From a virus, in the IMG/VR virus record IMGVR_UViG_3300030098_003463, positions 1 through 52,563 of that record: a stretch of 52,563 nucleotides of DNA; one strand, given 5' to 3'. Below the pieces are notes generated by a model. The model ran no database searches. It saw only the letters and a list, made by a program, of their open reading frames with translations, and was not told where the DNA came from. The position numbers and the translations under genes were made by a program. Positions 6,842 through 32,179 of the stretch are shown here, in pieces (position 1 is the first letter of the stretch; each line of letters starts with the position of its first letter).

Positions 6842-8082
6842 TTAAGTGCAATGGTTCCGTGTATGTTTTCAATTAATTCTTCTACCCAAAAATCTTGCGA
6901 CTCCAACAAGGCTCTGGCTGAATCTGGCGTATAAGCATGGACATGAGTGTAGTCTATAAGCATTGTAGGCAAATACTCATGGTTTGGCATGGTTAACAAC
7001 AGCGTTCCAGAGGGACGCAATACTCGTTTCCACTCTGTTAGAGCTTTATATGGATCAACTAAATGCTCTAAAAGATGCGGTGCCATTATGTAGTCAATAC
7101 TATTGTTTTGAACAGGCAAATCGGAAGCATCGGCAGTAGTGTTTGGGTCTGCTTCTTCGTATTTGCGTCCTCCAGCCCCCCTCTCGCCAGTTTTAGCGCA
7201 ATCAATACCTATAGCCTCGTACGCACCTCCTTTATGACCACAGCCCAAATTAAGCCCTTTCTTGCCTTCAAGAGACTCAAGATGACTATCTAACCATTCT
7301 TCTTCCTGTAGTCCGCTGTCAATACGCTTAGTGCCAGATCCATAAGGTTGCCATCCCATCTGGAAACACCGATACCATTTTTTAACACCATGCTTGCGTA
7401 TAATGGCATTGTTGGTGGCTTCTTGATGTTGTTTTGAATCCCAATAGTTTTTATGAACTCTTTGTCCTGTTTGTTGTCCTATGTGATGCAAGTAAGCAGA
7501 CCTGTCTGCAATTAAAACAAAACCTTCCTCTTGCATTCTAATGGACGAATCTAAATCATCGCCACCCGGCAACGATTCATCTAAGCCACCAATTTTTTTA
7601 AGCAATTCTGTGCGAACAACCATACAAAAACCAATAAGTAAACTTGTTTCTAATTCAACTGGAAGGTTAATATTAAACAAGTTTTGGTTGCCAGAAACAA
7701 AATTTGAACATGGACCAACTGCTCCTACCTCTGGCCTATTGAAATGACGAATTAATGTGCGCCAAAACTCATTAGACTTTGGTGGAAACACAACGTCATC
7801 ATTCATCATGCAAAAATAAGGCGTGTTGGTTTTGAATAGGCCAATATTAATTGCGCCCATCCACTTCATATTGCTTCCCGGCTGAATAACTTCAATGTTG
7901 TCTACTTCAATAGATTTTACTAAAGAGCAAATATTGTCTTGCGACTCTATGCTTGGATCATTGTTAATGATCATTATGCTAAGTGGGTATTCTGTATTTG
8001 CCACAAGAGAATAAAGACACCATTGCAACTGCTGGTAATTTTGATACGTAGGAATACAGACTGTAAGAAGTGGGCTAGTCAT
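6805..8082 (-). CDS. Fusion of GT2 glycosyltransferase and SAM-dependent methyltransferase
   Basis: 425 residues with two domains. Residues 1 to about 220 are a GT-A family 2 glycosyltransferase: LLTVCIPTYQNYQQLQWCLYSL at the start, the DxD-like MMNDDVVFPP near 95, and GGDDLDSSIRMQEEG near 175. From about 265 follows a class I methyltransferase: the SAM-binding LNLGCGHKGG, an acidic strand end DASDLPVQNNSIDYI, then HLLEHLVDPYKALTEWKRVLRPSGTLLLTMPN (type 11 style). It overlaps both neighbours (4 nt upstream, 37 nt downstream), so the three sugar genes are translationally coupled. A likely job is transfer and O-methylation of a sugar on a surface polymer. The acceptor is unknown. Confidence 0.85.
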   Translation of the reverse strand: MTSPLLTVCIPTYQNYQQLQWCLYSLVANTEYPLSIMIINNDPSIESQDNICSLVKSIEVDNIEVIQPGSNMKWMGAINIGLFKTNTPYFCMMNDDVVFPPKSNEFWRTLIRHFNRPEVGAVGPCSNFVSGNQNLFNINLPVELETSLLIGFCMVVRTELLKKIGGLDESLPGGDDLDSSIRMQEEGFVLIADRSAYLHHIGQQTGQRVHKNYWDSKQHQEATNNAIIRKHGVKKWYRCFQMGWQPYGSGTKRIDSGLQEEEWLDSHLESLEGKKGLNLGCGHKGGAYEAIGIDCAKTGERGAGGRKYEEADPNTTADASDLPVQNNSIDYIMAPHLLEHLVDPYKALTEWKRVLRPSGTLLLTMPNHEYLPTMLIDYTHVHAYTPDSARALLESQDFWVEELIENIHGTIALKCRTLKTKEVLS

Positions 8083-9937: not shown

Positions 9938-10933
9938 TTAAGAGATGCCAGCCAAAACACCAAGCTTGCGCCTGTTGTTGACTGCCAAATTGCCCTGAAA
10001 CAATATTTGAGCAACAAGGGCATCTTGGTCGATGGGCTTCTGGAAGCCTTCATCAGTCATAGCAAAATTAGCTTTGCCATGAATGAACATCATAATATGG
10101 GCAGAGTTTAGCATATACATTGTGCCGCTAGTGCAATAGTCATCAAAGACAACTTCTGCACCCTTAAACTTCAATGTATCAATGCCAGCGTCAGCACCAC
10201 CAGAAGGATTCTGTTCGTAACGTACGCGAGGCGAAATCAAGGCTTCCAAAGCTTCATGTACGGTCTGAGTTGTTACAATATAATCAGGCGTAGAAGAAAC
10301 ACCTTCTGAACCCTTAGAACAACTATTGTAAACAGTACGCATATTAGAAACTAAATTAGAAGCAGCAGCCCCCACGCTAGCCACTGAACGATTGCGCCAC
10401 GAAGTGTTTGTAGCAGGATCAATCGAAGCATACGTGGTTGTAGCAGGAGTCTGGTCAACAGCAGCAGTTAAGCCCGTAAGCTGCTTGCTGCCAGAACCAG
10501 TGCCATCGCTAAAAATACCAGTAGCAACGCCATCACCCAAGGAAAGTTCAGCTTGTCGAATCTTTTCTTGCATAATGTCGTTGATCTGAGCCGGACCTTG
10601 GTTTTGACGCAAAGTTAGACCGTCGATGGCAATGCCAACTGCGCCCTGCTTCCACGTATACCATGCCGTAGTCTGCCCAATAGAAGGAGTTATGCTTAGT
10701 GGATCAAGCCCATAATACCACTTAAAAGTGTTATTTTTTCCAGTCATAACTGGAATGCGAATGCGCTCACCACCTTGAAGAACCTTGATACGATTGCCAG
10801 ACTTAAACCAAGATAGCGTCTTAGCCATTTCATAGACGTTATCCTGAATGGCACCAGACGAAAGAATTTCGTCCAACGTCATCGTAAGCAAAGGTCCATA
10901 TGTGCGACTTAGGGTCGATTCTCCCGTAGCCAT
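9938..10933 (-). CDS. Major capsid protein (HK97 fold)
   Basis: 331 residues. The start MATGESTLSRTYGPLLTMTL is followed by an N-terminal arm and helical parts. ERIRIPVMTGKNNTFKWYYG leads an extended-loop region. The C-terminal axial-domain pattern LKFKGAEVVFDDYC, then MYMLNSAHIMMFIHG, then DQDALVAQI.FQGNLAVNNRRKLGVLAGI is typical of HK97-fold capsid proteins of marine phages. It lies 28 nt below the scaffold gene and above two small beta-rich genes, the usual head-gene order. It forms the icosahedral shell. Confidence 0.88.
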   Translation of the reverse strand: MATGESTLSRTYGPLLTMTLDEILSSGAIQDNVYEMAKTLSWFKSGNRIKVLQGGERIRIPVMTGKNNTFKWYYGLDPLSITPSIGQTTAWYTWKQGAVGIAIDGLTLRQNQGPAQINDIMQEKIRQAELSLGDGVATGIFSDGTGSGSKQLTGLTAAVDQTPATTTYASIDPATNTSWRNRSVASVGAAASNLVSNMRTVYNSCSKGSEGVSSTPDYIVTTQTVHEALEALISPRVRYEQNPSGGADAGIDTLKFKGAEVVFDDYCTSGTMYMLNSAHIMMFIHGKANFAMTDEGFQKPIDQDALVAQILFQGNLAVNNRRKLGVLAGIS

Positions 10934-20923: not shown

Positions 20924-20939
20924 TGTTCCACGTGAAACA
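20924..20939. promoter_or_regulatory. parS-like ParB-binding site
   Basis: TGTTCCACGTGAAACA is an exact match to the widely conserved bacterial chromosomal parS consensus TGTTNCACGTGAAACA. It is the only copy I can find in the window. It lies 45 bp upstream of the first late gene and about 8.8 kb from the phage's own ParB-family gene. Confidence 0.8.
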
Positions 20940-21030: not shown

Positions 21031-21070
21031 CGACGATTCCACGGCGGCATAATGCAACGCAAGAATCGTC
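21031..21070. repeat. Inverted repeat GACGATTC / GAATCGTC
   Basis: Perfect 8-bp arms at 21032-21039 and 21063-21070 around a 23-nt loop. It lies between the parS-like site and the 12-bp repeats. Confidence 0.6.
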
Positions 21071-21078
21071 TGTCAAAA

Positions 21079-21128
21079 ATCGGCCCAAAATCACTGTCAG
21101 CAAAGCTGTTTTGGGGTTTTGGGCCGAT
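21079..21128. repeat. 12-bp inverted repeat with nested hairpin
   Basis: ATCGGCCCAAAA at 21079-21090 is the exact reverse complement of TTTTGGGCCGAT at 21117-21128. The loop has its own CAGC/GCTG hairpin (21098-21108). A third copy of TTTTGGGCCGAT is at 21268-21279, and a near copy of the reverse complement at about 21834-21844. Confidence 0.75.
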
Positions 21129-21192
21129 CAGAGGCTAAACAGTGCGCGTCATAACGTGTGCTGTTCTGTTCAAGATTCTTTGAACACGTCTG

Positions 21193-21472
21193 ATGGATGG
21201 TATCCATTTGATTTGACACCGTAGACAGTAGATTGAACGTCGGACCCTGCTGTCCTACGGCTCTGTGTTTTGGGCCGATTCCAGCCAAGATCGGTCCCGT
21301 AGGCTCTCTGTTGGCTCTCTGTCGTGGCTTGTTGGCTGTCTCCCTGAATACCATTCAGTATGTGTGATAGATGGTATCTATGGCCTTGAGGATTGATCTG
21401 AGGTCGATGGATACCATCCATTACGCCTATATGTGCCAAATGGTATTTGGAGACTTGAGGTTTGGTCTTAGG
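21193..21472. repeat. Iteron-like repeats built on ATGGTAT
   Basis: ATGGATGGTATCCAT at 21193-21207 is the exact reverse complement of 21407-21421. ATGGTAT also starts two direct repeats of about 33 nt at 21371 and 21440, which share CTTGAGG 14 nt further on and end in AGG. Another inverted ATACCAT is at 21348-21354. Confidence 0.7.
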
Positions 21473-21473
21473 G

Positions 21474-21490
21474 AATAACCTCTGGTTATT
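21474..21490. repeat. Short perfect hairpin AATAACC-TCT-GGTTATT
   Basis: Seven-bp arms with a 3-nt loop, just after the second 33-nt repeat. There is no T-run, so it is not an obvious terminator. Confidence 0.55.
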
Positions 21491-21548
21491 AACGCGCACA
21501 AAGCAGAGCTTCATGTGTGTGGTTGTCGATTGTCGATGATTCTGGCAG

Positions 21549-21679
21549 TGCAAAATTTGCAGCATTTTTTCCTATGGAAAGATTGGCCTAACGTATACGC
21601 AACAACGTCGCGCTCGCGTAGGATGCACTTTTTGCAGGTCGATTTCGGTGATTTGTGGTGTTTTGCTGCAAAATTTGCA
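21549..21679. repeat. Two copies of TGCAAAATTTGCA
   Basis: The same near-palindromic 13-mer is at 21549-21561 and 21667-21679. With the upstream repeats, this makes the segment look like a replication or partition region. Confidence 0.65.
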
Positions 21680-22365
21680 CTTTTGGGGTGGCCTTGCGCG
21701 GAAGCAAAGCTTCTTATGCGCGTAATCGTAGGCCTGTGGGACGCACGTGGCTCTTTGAGCCTATTCGCGCGTTGGAGCTTTGGCTAATGCGTAGGCGCGA
21801 AACATATAGTCCGTATGCGTCGTTGGGCTAAAAATTCGGCCAAAAAATATTGTGCATTATGCGAGCGGGGATTTTTGGAGATCGGGGTTGGCACGGCGAT
21901 TGCAACGGTAAAAACTGGCGGCGATCCAGCCCATCGGGTCGTTGTCATCCTCCCATAGCGAGGTGCAGGGTTGTGCATAGGCATCACGATTCGGGGCCGA
22001 CAGAGCCTCCATCGTGGAAAGCTTGCCCAATCCCAAGACATAGCCAGCCGAGCCGAAGCTAAAGACTTCAGAGCAGCCGCTCGTATGAAGCAAAGCTGGC
22101 GGGTCATCCAAGGGAATACATGATTGGATGACTGTGAATAGGACAGGCCACAGTAGGTCGAAGCAGTGACGATTGTGACCAAGGCACACCACCCCGTAGC
22201 AGTTCATTTAGACTGCCGTGATCGGTGGAGCAACAGACTCCAGTAGTTAGGATGAGGTAAACGCCATTTAGGATTTCTTGGTTAACAGTCACGAAAGCCC
22301 TGCTGTCCAAAAGTTCAACGGGCCTGACCCCTATCAAATATGCCCATAGCCGAGCGGATAACCGC

Positions 22366-22395
22366 TTGACAGCGCGATCAATCAAGCGTTATAAC
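22366..22395 (+). promoter_or_regulatory. Strong rightward sigma70-type promoter
   Basis: TTGACA at 22366-22371, an 18-bp spacer, then TATAAC at 22390-22395. It points at the early unit whose first gene starts at 22546. This predicts a 5' leader of about 140 nt that has a GTGACT/AGTCAC hairpin before the ribosome site AAAGGAG. Confidence 0.7.
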
Positions 22396-22407
22396 GCGCA
22401 ATTGATC
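22376..22407. promoter_or_regulatory. 32-bp dyad operator over the -10 region
   Basis: GATCAAT (22376-22382) and ATTGATC (22401-22407) flank the perfect palindrome GCGTTATAACGC (22386-22397), all sharing one centre at 22391.5. The dyad covers the -10 box and the expected start point, so a bound protein would block the promoter. Confidence 0.65.
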
Positions 22408-22545
22408 AAGAGGCTGTGACAGTCCAATAGTGGCTGTCGGGTAAACCATCACCGATCTGTTAAAGCCTTGCAATTTACCATTAAGCAGATCACCTTTCAT
22501 ACACAGTGACTCATTAGAAGTCACGCCACACCAAAGGAGCCTATC

Positions 22546-27905: not shown

Positions 27906-28504
27906 TGCTTGACCACTTTCATTTCAATGTAACCCCAATCGAAAGGCACCTGAAAAGACTGAGGTTTAATCTCCATTTCAGTGACCACCGAACAGAATTG
28001 ATTGACAGCATCCTGTAAATCGTAAGGGACTGTGTGTCGTGTAACTTCTGGCTCTGGCAATACTGGAAGATTCTGCCCCACAATTTCATTACGCATAGAG
28101 CGTAAGTATCCAGCAGACCACTCTTCCTCTTCTGCTTTGTCCAGTAAGTGGTCCCTGTCTGCCGTGTTCTCCATGCCAGCAACTTCAAGGTGATGGGTCC
28201 ACGACAGATCACGGCGTTCCACAGCAGGAAAAACAGACGCTACCCATGCACAGTTTCTAAGGGTAGTGTCTGATTTTCCTGTAAGAAAAACTGCTTGTGA
28301 GTAAGTATCTGGAAACTTGTTTTCGCCATACAAAATCCAATCTCCAATCCAAAAATTAATATGTTTATGTATGGCTTGAAGAACAACGCCAGCTTTAAAC
28401 CACTCTTCCCATGACGTATCTTCAGGAATCAAGTAGTGACTCTCCACAAAACTACCAGACAGACCAGACACTTTGCTTAAAGTGTCGCCAGACTCACTCA
28501 TCAC
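27902..28504 (-). CDS. Conserved regulator-like protein of the WWIGDW/LRNYAWV type
   Basis: 200 residues. The block FWIGDWILYGENKFPDTYSQ, then TLRNCAWVASVFP, then DLSWTHHLEVAGM and LDKAEEEEWSAGYLR is a form I know from phages and actinobacterial and proteobacterial regulators (consensus WWIGDWL.YGE..Y...Y, LRNYAWVA, LSWSHH.EVA, AE..GWS...LR). It is often found beside DNA-binding proteins and no precise role is known. It overlaps the XRE repressor gene by 11 nt and is co-transcribed with it, so it probably works in the same switch. Confidence 0.65.
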   Translation of the reverse strand: MMSESGDTLSKVSGLSGSFVESHYLIPEDTSWEEWFKAGVVLQAIHKHINFWIGDWILYGENKFPDTYSQAVFLTGKSDTTLRNCAWVASVFPAVERRDLSWTHHLEVAGMENTADRDHLLDKAEEEEWSAGYLRSMRNEIVGQNLPVLPEPEVTRHTVPYDLQDAVNQFCSVVTEMEIKPQSFQVPFDWGYIEMKVVKH

Positions 28505-28727
28505 ATCTCCTTTGACTTTGAAAACTCAACAAATCATTAGGCTTACAATCTAAAGCAACGCAAATTTTACCCAAAGTTTTAGCACTAATGTTTCGTTGGC
28601 GACTATTCCATATATCATTAACTAAGTTTTTGTCAGTGCCGCTTATCTCAGCAAGTTTTTTTTGAGAGCAAACGCCACGTGAACGTGCAGTATTTTTTAC
28701 GTTCCAGCAAAGTAGTAAATTGTTCAT
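28494..28727 (-). CDS. XRE-family (Cro/CI-type) repressor
   Basis: 77 residues, essentially one helix-turn-helix: CSQKKLAEISGTDKNLVNDIWNSR at about 20-43, then ISAKTLGKICVALDCKPNDLL. This is the XRE fold. There is no oligomerisation or protease domain, so it acts as a small Cro-like dimer. No ribosome site precedes the ATG, and the promoter -10 box ends 6 nt before it, so the message is predicted to be leaderless. It faces the divergent switch region with dyads, and it is the best candidate for the protein that reads the dispersed palindromes. Confidence 0.8.
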   Translation of the reverse strand: MNNLLLCWNVKNTARSRGVCSQKKLAEISGTDKNLVNDIWNSRQRNISAKTLGKICVALDCKPNDLLSFQSQRRCDE

Positions 28728-28733
28728 CTATTA

Positions 28734-28762
28734 AATATATCCATATAAATGTGGATCGTCAA
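28734..28762 (-). promoter_or_regulatory. Leftward promoter of the repressor module
   Basis: On the minus strand TTGACG (28762-28757), a 17-bp spacer and TATATT (28739-28734). The expected start point coincides with the repressor ATG at 28727. An inverted repeat ATCCA/TGGAT (28739-28756) covers the spacer. Confidence 0.7.
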
Positions 28763-28785
28763 CGATGCCGTGAGATGCTTGTATT

Positions 28786-28826
28786 TATAATTCTTGTTGA
28801 CAAGAATCCACATTGGAGCATATATT
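28786..28826 (+). promoter_or_regulatory. Rightward promoter and operator of the switch region
   Basis: TTGACA at 28797-28802, an 18-bp spacer and TATATT at 28821-28826 make one good promoter. TATAAT at 28786-28791 is a second -10 candidate. The near-perfect palindrome ATTCTTGTTGACAAGAAT (28790-28807) covers the -35 box, and TCCACATTGGA (28807-28817) follows it. Binding there would block rightward transcription. Confidence 0.6.
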
Positions 28827-29754: not shown

Positions 29755-30573
29755 ATGGCAAAGCAACCTGAAGGTGTAAGCAAGAGCGACATGTTTTACG
29801 TAGACAACCCCGATATGATTCAAATTGTAGAGGGGTTCAATCACCGCGAAGACTTTTCAGACTTAAACAATCTGGTGGAGTCTATTATCCAGCGTGGCAT
29901 AGATACGCCACTACATGTCCGTAGGAACCGTGGCAACAAAGAACAGCCGTTTGCACTGGTAGCAGGAGAACGTAGGCTTAGAGCGGCTAAGATGGCCCAT
30001 GAAAATGGTGCTGGTCATATCCGCATTCCCGTCATCGTCAAGCAAGTAGATGACAAGCAAGCGTTTGAGGATAGCGTAGTAGAGAATATCGAACGCAAAA
30101 ACCTGAACCATGTCGAAGAGTCTAATGCTGTAGTTCGCATGGGACAGTTTGGATACAGCGTCAAAGAAATTGCCAACAAGTTCAGTCGCTCTGATCAGTG
30201 GGTAAGAGAGCGTCAAGTATTAGCAGAGGCGCACAGCGAAGTAAAGAAAGCTGTGATCAAGCGCAAGATTCCTACCGATGTAGCAGTAGGATTGGTCAAA
30301 GCCACAGACCTACCAAAGCAAGTAGGTGAGCTAAAAAAGATCCTTGTAAAAACTCAGGGATCAAAGAAAAATACTCGCAAAGCAGCAGCAACAATTATAG
30401 GAAAGAAGGTGCGTCCTGCAATAAAAGATTTAGAAAAAGTTAGGACAGCAGTGACTACTGCAGAGGGAATGGACGAAGCAAACCGAGAAATATTCTTAGC
30501 TGTATTAGAGTATACTTTAGGAGAGTTACCTGAAGAAGACCTTGGTCATTTCATTGATGTCCTCTGTGAGTAA
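29755..30573 (+). CDS. ParB-family DNA-binding protein
   Basis: 272 residues. The ParB/Spo0J N-terminal domain has LVAGERRLRAA at 68-78 (the GERR nucleotide box) and ENIERKNLNHVEE at 110-122 (matching EN..R.DLNPIEE). A helix-turn-helix at about 134-155 (YSVKEIANKFSRSDQWVRER) follows, then a basic linker and a C-terminal helical domain. Chromosomal and plasmid ParB proteins are CTP-dependent clamps that load at parS. No ParA gene is seen. An exact parS motif lies at 20924-20939. It has its own terminator-like hairpin downstream. It may serve segregation, replication or gene silencing. Confidence 0.85.
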   Translation: MAKQPEGVSKSDMFYVDNPDMIQIVEGFNHREDFSDLNNLVESIIQRGIDTPLHVRRNRGNKEQPFALVAGERRLRAAKMAHENGAGHIRIPVIVKQVDDKQAFEDSVVENIERKNLNHVEESNAVVRMGQFGYSVKEIANKFSRSDQWVRERQVLAEAHSEVKKAVIKRKIPTDVAVGLVKATDLPKQVGELKKILVKTQGSKKNTRKAAATIIGKKVRPAIKDLEKVRTAVTTAEGMDEANREIFLAVLEYTLGELPEEDLGHFIDVLCE

Positions 30574-30580
30574 GTAGACT

Positions 30581-30625
30581 AAATCAATGTGGTGGGTGCC
30601 TTGATTTTACCCACCACATTGATTT
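30581..30625 (+). terminator. 17-bp perfect hairpin after the ParB gene
   Basis: AAATCAATGTGGTGGGT (30581-30597) pairs exactly with 30609-30625. The T-run after it is short (TTTC), so it may be a weak terminator, a bidirectional one or a stabiliser of the 3' end. Confidence 0.65.
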
Positions 30626-30657
30626 CTAACTTAATTAATAACAAGGAGTTGCAATGA

Positions 30658-30990
30658 ATGAAGGTTTCTTTTAAACCCACACCTCAAGCACCAAGAAAGC
30701 CAATATTACAATACGATTGGGGCGACAATCCTGTTTGGCATATAGACATACCAAGTCATTCTAATCCAAGTTTTTTTTGGACCGTTACTTACTCTAAAAA
30801 CGGAATGTTTACTTGCAATTGTCCTGCACACAAAACAAAAAATAATTGCAAGCATATAAACCAAGTTATGATTAAATTAGGAGAAGAGTTTTTGTCTTTG
30901 TGCCTTACTAAAGACAATCAGTTGCCCTTGCTTTTGCTCAAAGAAATTTTTGCAAAAGCATTCGACAAGCATATATACTTCGATAGTTAG
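30658..30990 (+). CDS. SWIM-type zinc-finger protein
   Basis: 110 residues. C53-x-C55-x8-C64-x-H66 in FTCNCPAHKTKNNCKHINQV is the SWIM zinc finger (CxCxnCxH), used for DNA or protein contact. The N-terminal part is beta-rich (PVWHIDIPSHSNPSFFWTVT). Two ATGs overlap at the start. The first (30654) gives only a few codons before a stop, so the second is used, with ribosome site AAGGAG. Likely a DNA-binding or recruiting protein. Confidence 0.7.
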   Translation: MKVSFKPTPQAPRKPILQYDWGDNPVWHIDIPSHSNPSFFWTVTYSKNGMFTCNCPAHKTKNNCKHINQVMIKLGEEFLSLCLTKDNQLPLLLLKEIFAKAFDKHIYFDS

Positions 30991-31000
30991 GAATTGCCTT

Positions 31001-31258
31001 ATGAATGAGAACAATTTAATTAGCGACAAAGGAGAATTGCTTTGTAGTATACTTCCAAACCTTAACAAAGCCGATGCGTTTATATGCTTTGGGGTTACAT
31101 TCAATGAAACTGGCAATGACGAATTAGCCGTTGCAAGTTTTGGAGATCAAGAGGGTATCGTAGCTGCTATAGCCTACCTGTTAGCAGACACTACTTACAA
31201 CGACCTGTTGCCTGTTATACTTGAAACGATAGTTCGTATCAACTCAGAAAGTAGTTGA
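31001..31258 (+). CDS. Small protein of unknown function
   Basis: 85 residues from the ATG at 31001 (MNENNLISDKGELLCSILPN). A longer frame from 30950 overlaps the SWIM gene by 41 nt and has no ribosome site. It is acidic, alpha/beta, with AVASFGDQEGIVAAIAYLLA. The next promoter, TTGACA at 31255, begins inside its last codons. Confidence 0.5.
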   Translation: MNENNLISDKGELLCSILPNLNKADAFICFGVTFNETGNDELAVASFGDQEGIVAAIAYLLADTTYNDLLPVILETIVRINSESS

Positions 31259-31283
31259 CAAAATATGTAGATATATGTATATT
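31255..31283 (+). promoter_or_regulatory. Strong sigma70-type promoter of the small RNA
   Basis: TTGACA at 31255-31260, a 17-bp spacer and TATATT at 31278-31283. Only one base of the -10 box departs from the consensus. It overlaps the end of the preceding gene and fires into a non-coding stretch. Confidence 0.75.
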
Positions 31284-31289
31284 TGTAGA

Positions 31290-31452
31290 CAGACTTGAAT
31301 GATGAAGGCATTCATTGTAATTTCTTTGCTGCCTCCTTTACCTCCCCCAAGGCGGATTGGTGGACACCACACTGTCGCGGTTGTGGTAATAACTACAGCA
31401 AAGACAAACCAGTAAGCGTGTTGCCTTCATCAACATGCTTGCTGGTTTTTTT
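31290..31452 (+). ncRNA. Predicted free-standing small RNA of about 160 nt
   Basis: It starts about 7 nt after the -10 box above and ends at an intrinsic terminator. Inside, TCTTTGCTG (31323-31331) pairs exactly with CAGCAAAGA (31396-31404) and encloses short hairpins (CCAA/TTGG, GGTG/CACC, GTGGT/ACTAC). TGAATG/CATTCA forms a 5' hairpin. The only open frame (from 31295) has no ribosome site and runs through the terminator. Confidence 0.6.
31407..31452 (+). terminator. Intrinsic terminator of the small RNA
   Basis: 31407-31423 pairs with 31431-31447 along 17 bp including two G-U pairs, with a 7-nt loop, and ends in seven T (31446-31452). Confidence 0.9.
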
Positions 31453-31828
31453 GTTTACCTTGTGTGTTTTCGTAAGTCTCGACAGGGGAGTGGAGCTTAC
31501 GGAATTTAATGGGGAGATACCACACAAGGAGGTGAGTAGGAAGTAGCGAGATGGATAGCAAGTGTGCAGGGATACACTCTGCCGTCTGGGGATGTTTATC
31601 TTGCCGTGACCTTCCTACTCACCGCTTTTACTTGGGTCTGCGAAGCAGATCCAAGATATATACTTGCTTCGCAAGACAAGGGAAAAGGATAGGAAATAGA
31701 ATGCAGTCTTTAAAGCTTTACATACATAGGCGTAATCAGTACAGCCTGTACAGAATGCTTAAGCCTGTATATTGTCATCTCCCTACGGGAGATGCGCGTA
31801 CGCGCGTTATATAGGAGTCCTCTTAGTA
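31453..31828 (+). other. Second structured non-coding stretch
   Basis: 376 nt with a chain of stems. CCTTGTGTG/CACACAAGG (31458-31466, 31521-31529) encloses a 9-bp stem (31468-31476, 31496-31504). GGTGAGTAGGAAG pairs perfectly over 13 bp (31531-31543 with 31611-31623) and encloses GCAAG/CTTGC. An 11-bp hairpin with a GAA loop (31631-31655), a CTTGC/GCAAG hairpin (31663-31675), and an 8-bp hairpin with loop TAC (31776-31794) overlapped by the palindrome GCGCGTACGCGC (31794-31805) follow. Open frames across it are explained by the repeats. Confidence 0.5.
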
Positions 31829-32179
31829 ATGAAAATTCCTGCCAGAGAAGTATCTGCGCCATTGCCAGCACCACGCTGGAAAATGGAAGAGCTTGAAGCA
31901 GAGAAGCTTGTTGCCAAGCTTGTTGACAAAGTAGATTTGTCATACCCAAGAGCAGTCAAAGACAAGTCGATTAATTTACAGACTGCTCTTGCCATTGGTG
32001 TTGTTAAGGCCATGTTGAAGATGGCAGAAAAGGAGGGGTTATCACTTAAACAAGTAGAAAGTCTTGACTTGATGCAGTTAATGTTAGACCTCATATCCGC
32101 AGACAGAGACATTAACAAAGGAGAAATTTTAGACAAATACTTACAGCACAACTCAATTTATTTACCACCTAATCAGTAG
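31829..32179 (+). CDS. Helical early protein, unknown function
   Basis: 116 residues from the ATG at 31829 (MKIPAREVSAPLPAPRWKME). Helices follow: ELEAEKLVAKLVDKVDLSYP and LQTALAIGVVKAMLKMAEKE. AGGAG is 11 nt before the ATG; longer frames start inside hairpins. It leads the last early block, which probably handles replication and DNA ends. Confidence 0.55.
   Translation: MKIPAREVSAPLPAPRWKMEELEAEKLVAKLVDKVDLSYPRAVKDKSINLQTALAIGVVKAMLKMAEKEGLSLKQVESLDLMQLMLDLISADRDINKGEILDKYLQHNSIYLPPNQ

Follow-up and report, generated by a model that had tools for sequence, protein, structure and literature searches.

A candidate phage small RNA with matching loops in its 5' hairpin and its terminator

The intergenic stretch at 31259-31828 of this virus contig raises the question of whether it produces an RNA of its own and, if so, what that RNA might do. 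The preliminary description had proposed a complete, free-standing unit with its own promoter and terminator. Our best reading is an early phage small RNA whose two hairpins kiss, either within the molecule or between copies. The window, i.e., the whole stretch of DNA analyzed here, is a 52.6-kb virus contig without a close isolate, its nearest terminase being 48% identical. Scans of viral contigs recovered one full-length relative, IMGVR_UViG_3300030419_003947 (55.6 kb, colinear, ~76% nucleotide identity), and two fragments, both without the small-RNA locus. No DNA relative of the small-RNA region was found in phage records (65 to 70% sensitivity), where searches at E up to 10 gave only short chance matches, and a plasmid search gave none. 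Protein searches with the genes adjoining the small RNA matched no phage record, and no portal relative was found in genome contigs.

A conserved candidate transcription unit without a conserved protein

The locus lies in a + strand gene cluster with the following features:

29755-30573, + strand: ParB-like gene
From the ParB-like gene to the intergenic stretch, + strand: small genes, function unassigned
31259-31828: intergenic stretch holding the small RNA
31255-31283, + strand: sigma-70-type promoter, TTGACA-17-TATATT, 11 of 12 matches
31296-31314, + strand: 5' hairpin P1, 6-bp stem TGAATG/CATTCA, 7-nt loop ATGAAGG (31302-31308)
31302-31430, + strand: proposed kissing interaction of loop 31302-31308 with 31424-31430, 7 bp, conserved in the relative
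31323-31404, + strand: P2, a 9-bp helix (31323-31331/31396-31404) around a variable arm
31406-31452, + strand: P3, intrinsic terminator, 18-bp stem, 7-nt loop CCTTCAT (31424-31430), T7
31829-32179, + strand: first gene of the downstream operon, 116 aa, with codon rhythm in its mismatches
Past the intergenic stretch: genes including a PD-(D/E)XK-type nuclease and a Holliday-junction-resolvase/VRR-NUC relative

The promoter, described earlier as near consensus, is so and is kept in the relative (TTGACA-17-TATCTT, L002 7494-7522); its -35 element shares bases with the TGA that ends the gene upstream, and transcription is predicted to start at about 31288-31291. Only two promoters of 11/12 quality occur in the whole window, at 28797 and 31255, and since a Markov control yields 1.2 by chance, the hexamers alone are not significant. 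The 28797 promoter recurs in the relative too (TTGACA-18-TATATT); both sites keep their spacing there, and this recurrence is better evidence than the hexamer match. At the other end of the unit, the terminator has its counterpart at L002 7604-7644, with an identical loop and three one-sided, pair-preserving changes. The seven T reported previously are present, but the stem, previously put at 17 bp, has 18 pairs in the phage.

Three further observations concern the surroundings. At 28494-28826, a Cro/C1-type HTH gene on the minus strand faces the 28797 (+) promoter, with a divergent 10/12 promoter site at 28762; with its inverted repeats ATGTGGAT/ATCCACAT, the arrangement resembles a regulatory switch. 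TGTTCCACGTGAAACA at 20924-20939, some 9 kb away from the ParB-like gene, is conserved (relative L012 1484-1499) and fits the consensus of a canonical parS site; several palindromes such as ATGGATACCATCCAT, CTGAATACCATTCAG, and CCAAATGGTATTTGG at 21188-21450 might be bound by a partition, replication, or repressor protein. Finally, a 17-bp intergenic hairpin without a T run lies 3' of the ParB gene (30573-30640), and the same place in the relative (L002 6825-6862) holds a hairpin of equal strength and unrelated sequence.

From predicted start to terminator, the RNA folds at -61.2 kcal/mol (z = -6.1, 0/200 shuffles), and its counterpart in the relative reaches z = -4.3. In a GC-corrected minimum free energy (MFE) scan of the phage, windows at 31301-31550 rank first among 150-nt windows on both strands, with the minus strand at the locus folding worse than the + strand. 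The long-range 9-bp helix of the preliminary description is present in the MFE fold, but the three small hairpins that it was said to enclose are not: P2 instead carries one irregular arm of ~64 nt, which in the relative is different and ~25 to 30 nt long. Across P1, P2, and P3, 26 of 32 pairs are unchanged between the two sequences on which the evidence for conserved structure is based, those of the phage and its one relative; five are changed on one side, one on both, and none is broken. The two-sided change replaces an A-U by a G-C pair in P1, which reads TGGATG/CATCCA around an identical loop in the relative, and the small number of such compensations reflects the single relative that carries the locus. 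All five one-sided changes pass through G-U pairs, which hold only in + strand RNA and thus argue against a DNA cruciform. The proposed covariation check, as far as one relative allows, therefore came out in favor of structure.

Could these be ordinary intergenic hairpins that arose by chance? The promoter statistics on which the preliminary description relied would allow it, with two found and 1.2 expected. Conservation and folding, however, exceed chance: z scores of -6.1 and -4.3, the top-ranked windows of the phage, 0 of 32 pairs broken, and a loop complementarity that is conserved (see below) make this explanation very improbable.

We next consider whether the locus is a short coding unit. 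The frame from 31295, a conserved protein from which would have spoken against an RNA, does not survive in the relative, where a frameshift and stops interrupt it. A second frame opens at the ATG at 31299 (ATGATGAAGGCA) and would make a small peptide; in both genomes it begins ATG-ATG and stops at the terminator foot. Yet its length is 38 aa in the phage and 24 aa in the relative, the two products have in common only an initial MMKA and a final NQ and are otherwise without similarity, and the conserved DNA is read in different frames in the two genomes. In addition, the phage window has no Shine-Dalgarno sequence for it. Mismatches per codon position number 15/8/10 at the small-RNA locus, compared with 100/28/16 in ParB and 48/23/5 in the next gene, so the codon rhythm of the neighboring genes is absent here. 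The small-peptide reading is close to refuted, and we consider it extremely improbable; the earlier judgment that the stretch holds no plausible gene is borne out.

With no conserved protein, and with promoter, terminator, and stems all conserved, the sequence comparison gives good support to a free-standing structured small RNA, and a real structured RNA is very probably made at this locus.

Complementary loops and a possible role in trans

A feature not noted in the preliminary description is P1 and its match to the terminator: the P1 loop is the exact reverse complement of the P3 loop. With the closing pairs, the match extends to 11 bp (31300-31310 with 31422-31432). Both loops are unchanged in the relative, where they lie inside uninterrupted identical stretches of ~13 and ~23 nt. 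Of the 132 pairs of + strand 7-nt-loop hairpins no more than 400 nt apart, no other is fully complementary, against an expectation of 0.008. As a plain duplex, the loop pairing is worth about -7.3 kcal/mol, and the 11-bp form -16.8 kcal/mol. The terminator loop is predicted to be fully open in both RNAs (1.0 in the phage), and in the relative the openness of the two loops is 0.84 to 1.0; P1 in the phage is weak (-3.4 kcal/mol), with its loop 52 to 99% open and a competing register.

Given this exact complementarity, the RNA could clasp itself or another copy, and we think it probable, from the sequence, that the two loops pair with each other in one way or another, within or between molecules. 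A kiss within one molecule looks strained, since linkers of only 8 and 6 nt join P1 and P2 and P3 has 18 or 17 bp, as judged from rough helix lengths. This favors, without proving, pairing between copies.

Trans-acting base pairing is the role most often seen for free-standing RNAs of similar length that end at an intrinsic terminator. It fits the open, conserved terminator loop and would be the most likely use here. In the mechanism that we propose, the promoter would drive an RNA of ~160 nt that ends at the intrinsic terminator and would fold into the short P1, the 9-bp P2 with its variable arm, and the terminator hairpin P3. Kissing between the P1 and P3 loops would then either close a single molecule or link two copies head to tail. 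The exposed terminator loop may act as a seed, its core CCUUCAU being able to pair with AUGAAG start-codon regions, while P1 may serve as a built-in anti-seed that masks or organizes it. For the full combination of a stand-alone phage sRNA with kissing loops and a base-pairing regulatory role in trans, we regard the case as about evenly balanced.

The search for targets gives leads at most. Two conserved matches of 10 to 11 nt occur at 2289-2299 and 10046-10055, inside the coding sequence of two late genes, in a number near that expected by chance, and one of them covers Asp-Glu-Gly codons. ATGAAGG, which matches the loop complement exactly, also opens the gene at 30658, and the relative's version of that gene begins with GATGAAGA; because ATGAAG starts are common, we take this only as a lead. 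The earlier suggestion of an antisense regulator finds little support in its cis form: no gene overlaps or opposes the RNA, and no opposite-strand gene with codon rhythm was found over 31259-31453.

The same complementary loops would also suit an architectural RNA, in which they join copies into dimers or rings and assembly, not mRNA pairing, is the function. The exact and conserved complementarity fits this possibility, as do the short linkers (8 and 6 nt), which by our estimate ease a kiss between molecules over one within. Moreover, phage assemblies held by kissing loops are known, namely, phi29 pRNA (PMC7357161) and GOLLD and ROOL (PMC12286853). However, the RNA is small, its central arm is not conserved, and functional RNA oligomers are seldom observed (PMC7357161); judged from sequence features, a purely architectural role appears improbable.

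Several other identities were considered. An anti-Shine-Dalgarno sRNA was suggested by CCUCC in the central arm of both genomes, a reading that we do not press because the arm is not conserved. A CsrA decoy, with scattered GGA motifs, was dropped, and the earlier, broader guess of a decoy for a host protein has little support; 6S-like, tRNA-like, and tmRNA readings were dropped with no Rfam or ARAGORN match. The earlier guess of a host-RNA mimic drew no support from Rfam, and of 91 matches to the 17-base terminator tip in genome contigs, none had the partner hairpin. Likewise, in viral contigs no other match to the 15-base tip had the partner hairpin among the matches listed.

RNA-B and possible attenuation of the downstream operon

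The description of the small RNA as a free-standing unit stands up well but is incomplete, as a second structured element adjoins it and an operon begins at 31829. The relevant features are as follows:

31458-31623, + strand: RNA-B, second structured noncoding element, directly 3' of the terminator
31458-31466/31521-31529: closing helix P4 of RNA-B
31468-31504: P5, long hairpin of RNA-B
31531-31623: P6, long hairpin of RNA-B
31631-31655, + strand: hairpin P7 (CTTGGGTCTGC/GCAGATCCAAG), followed by a hairpin at 31663-31675

RNA-B folds with z = -4.5 and -6.9 in the two genomes, and we find no credible coding and no Rfam family for it. Compared with the relative, 11 pairs are changed on both sides, nine of these in P5, as counted on a hand alignment that favors structure, P5 being misaligned by MAFFT. 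In P5, 14 of 15 pairs are kept in the phage and 15 of 15 in the relative, though almost every base differs.

RNA-B and the operon together raise the possibility that the unit also works as a leader or attenuator, which we see as a serious rival to the stand-alone small RNA. Here the promoter would serve the operon from 31829 onward, the terminator at 31448 would let some transcripts through, and these read-through transcripts would carry RNA-B; the short RNA would be a by-product of termination, which the P1-P3 kiss would tune. A noncoding element with 11 two-sided compensatory changes directly downstream and in the same orientation, followed by a gene on the same strand, speaks for such a leader. 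No good promoter was found between the terminator and RNA-B, so RNA-B probably arises by read-through or processing, which keeps this reading alive. On the other hand, the terminator is strong (18 pairs, T7), no alternative antiterminator fold was seen, and a weak promoter-like site at 31673-31702 (9/12) could serve the operon instead. On balance, attenuation seems rather unlikely, and the stand-alone small RNA remains our preferred reading.

A broader variant is that the terminator hairpin is a docking loop for P1 of a second copy, that the RNA self-assembles into dimers or rings, and that RNA-B, and perhaps the region at 21.6 to 22.5 kb, belong with it to a set of structured RNAs; we offer this as a speculative and doubtful proposal. 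That region is part of a long stretch without credible genes (~21040-22540, best 21650-22480), with large blocks 70 to 90% identical to the relative and no codon rhythm over 21500-22545. At 21650-22480, folding gives z of -4.7 on the + strand compared with -2.2 on the minus strand, and the region is a candidate large structured RNA with no Rfam match.

Other observations concern the DNA in and beyond RNA-B. At 31526-31535, AAGGAGGTGA is conserved in the relative and buried at the P4/P6 junction, with no conserved gene behind it; by eye, all 10 nt are complementary to the usual 16S rRNA 3' end. The hairpins at 31631-31675 are strongly conserved in the relative and contain TGCGAAGCA and TGCTTCGCA, which are exact reverse complements. 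Further on, at ~31701-31814 (L002 around 7900-8003), a possible small protein, MQSLK.YIHRR...LKPVYCH.PTGDARTRVI, is conserved by eye and overlaps two conserved hairpins.

Comparison with known RNAs

The RNA-family check returned no credible match: in Rfam 15, no family reaches the gathering threshold for the small RNA. We are looking at a phage small RNA whose loops complement each other in an unusual design; the principle is known, but the RNA matches no known family. Fully complementary 7-nt loops occur in ColE1 RNA I and RNA II, where they lie on a sense and an antisense RNA; in the present case a single transcript carries both, and we found no antisense promoter.

In size, phi29 pRNA is about the same as the phage small RNA. 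It likewise has two complementary hairpin loops in one RNA, through which copies can be joined head to tail (PMC7357161). Four complementary base pairs link its copies (PMC7357161), compared with 7 here, and the two further differ in that our phage has no Rfam pRNA match and an ordinary terminase large subunit (phrog_38) in place of a phi29-type packaging motor. GOLLD and ROOL are phage or prophage RNAs of unknown function held by kissing loops, with which they build cages (PMC12286853). They are far more elaborate, GOLLD often exceeding 800 nt, and often lie near tRNA islands, whereas the small RNA has ~160 nt, no covariance-model match, and no tRNA gene in the 52.6-kb window.

OOP of lambda, sar of P22, and c4 of P1 are also short phage transcripts, OOP with its own promoter, and act on a phage mRNA; for c4, this action probably depends on complementary loop sequences (PMC12197685). 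They are antisense to a phage gene, whereas we found no target gene opposite or overlapping this RNA, and unlike them the phage sRNA has two complementary loops within the same molecule.

The locus adds one structured phage RNA, and a neighboring second, to those described, neither being covered by an Rfam model. Since functional RNA oligomers are seldom seen in nature (PMC7357161), a small one that could be tested on a gel would be useful, and a 5' hairpin loop that is an exact, conserved match for the loop of its own terminator offers a simple design, open to testing, for small RNAs that clasp themselves or self-assemble.
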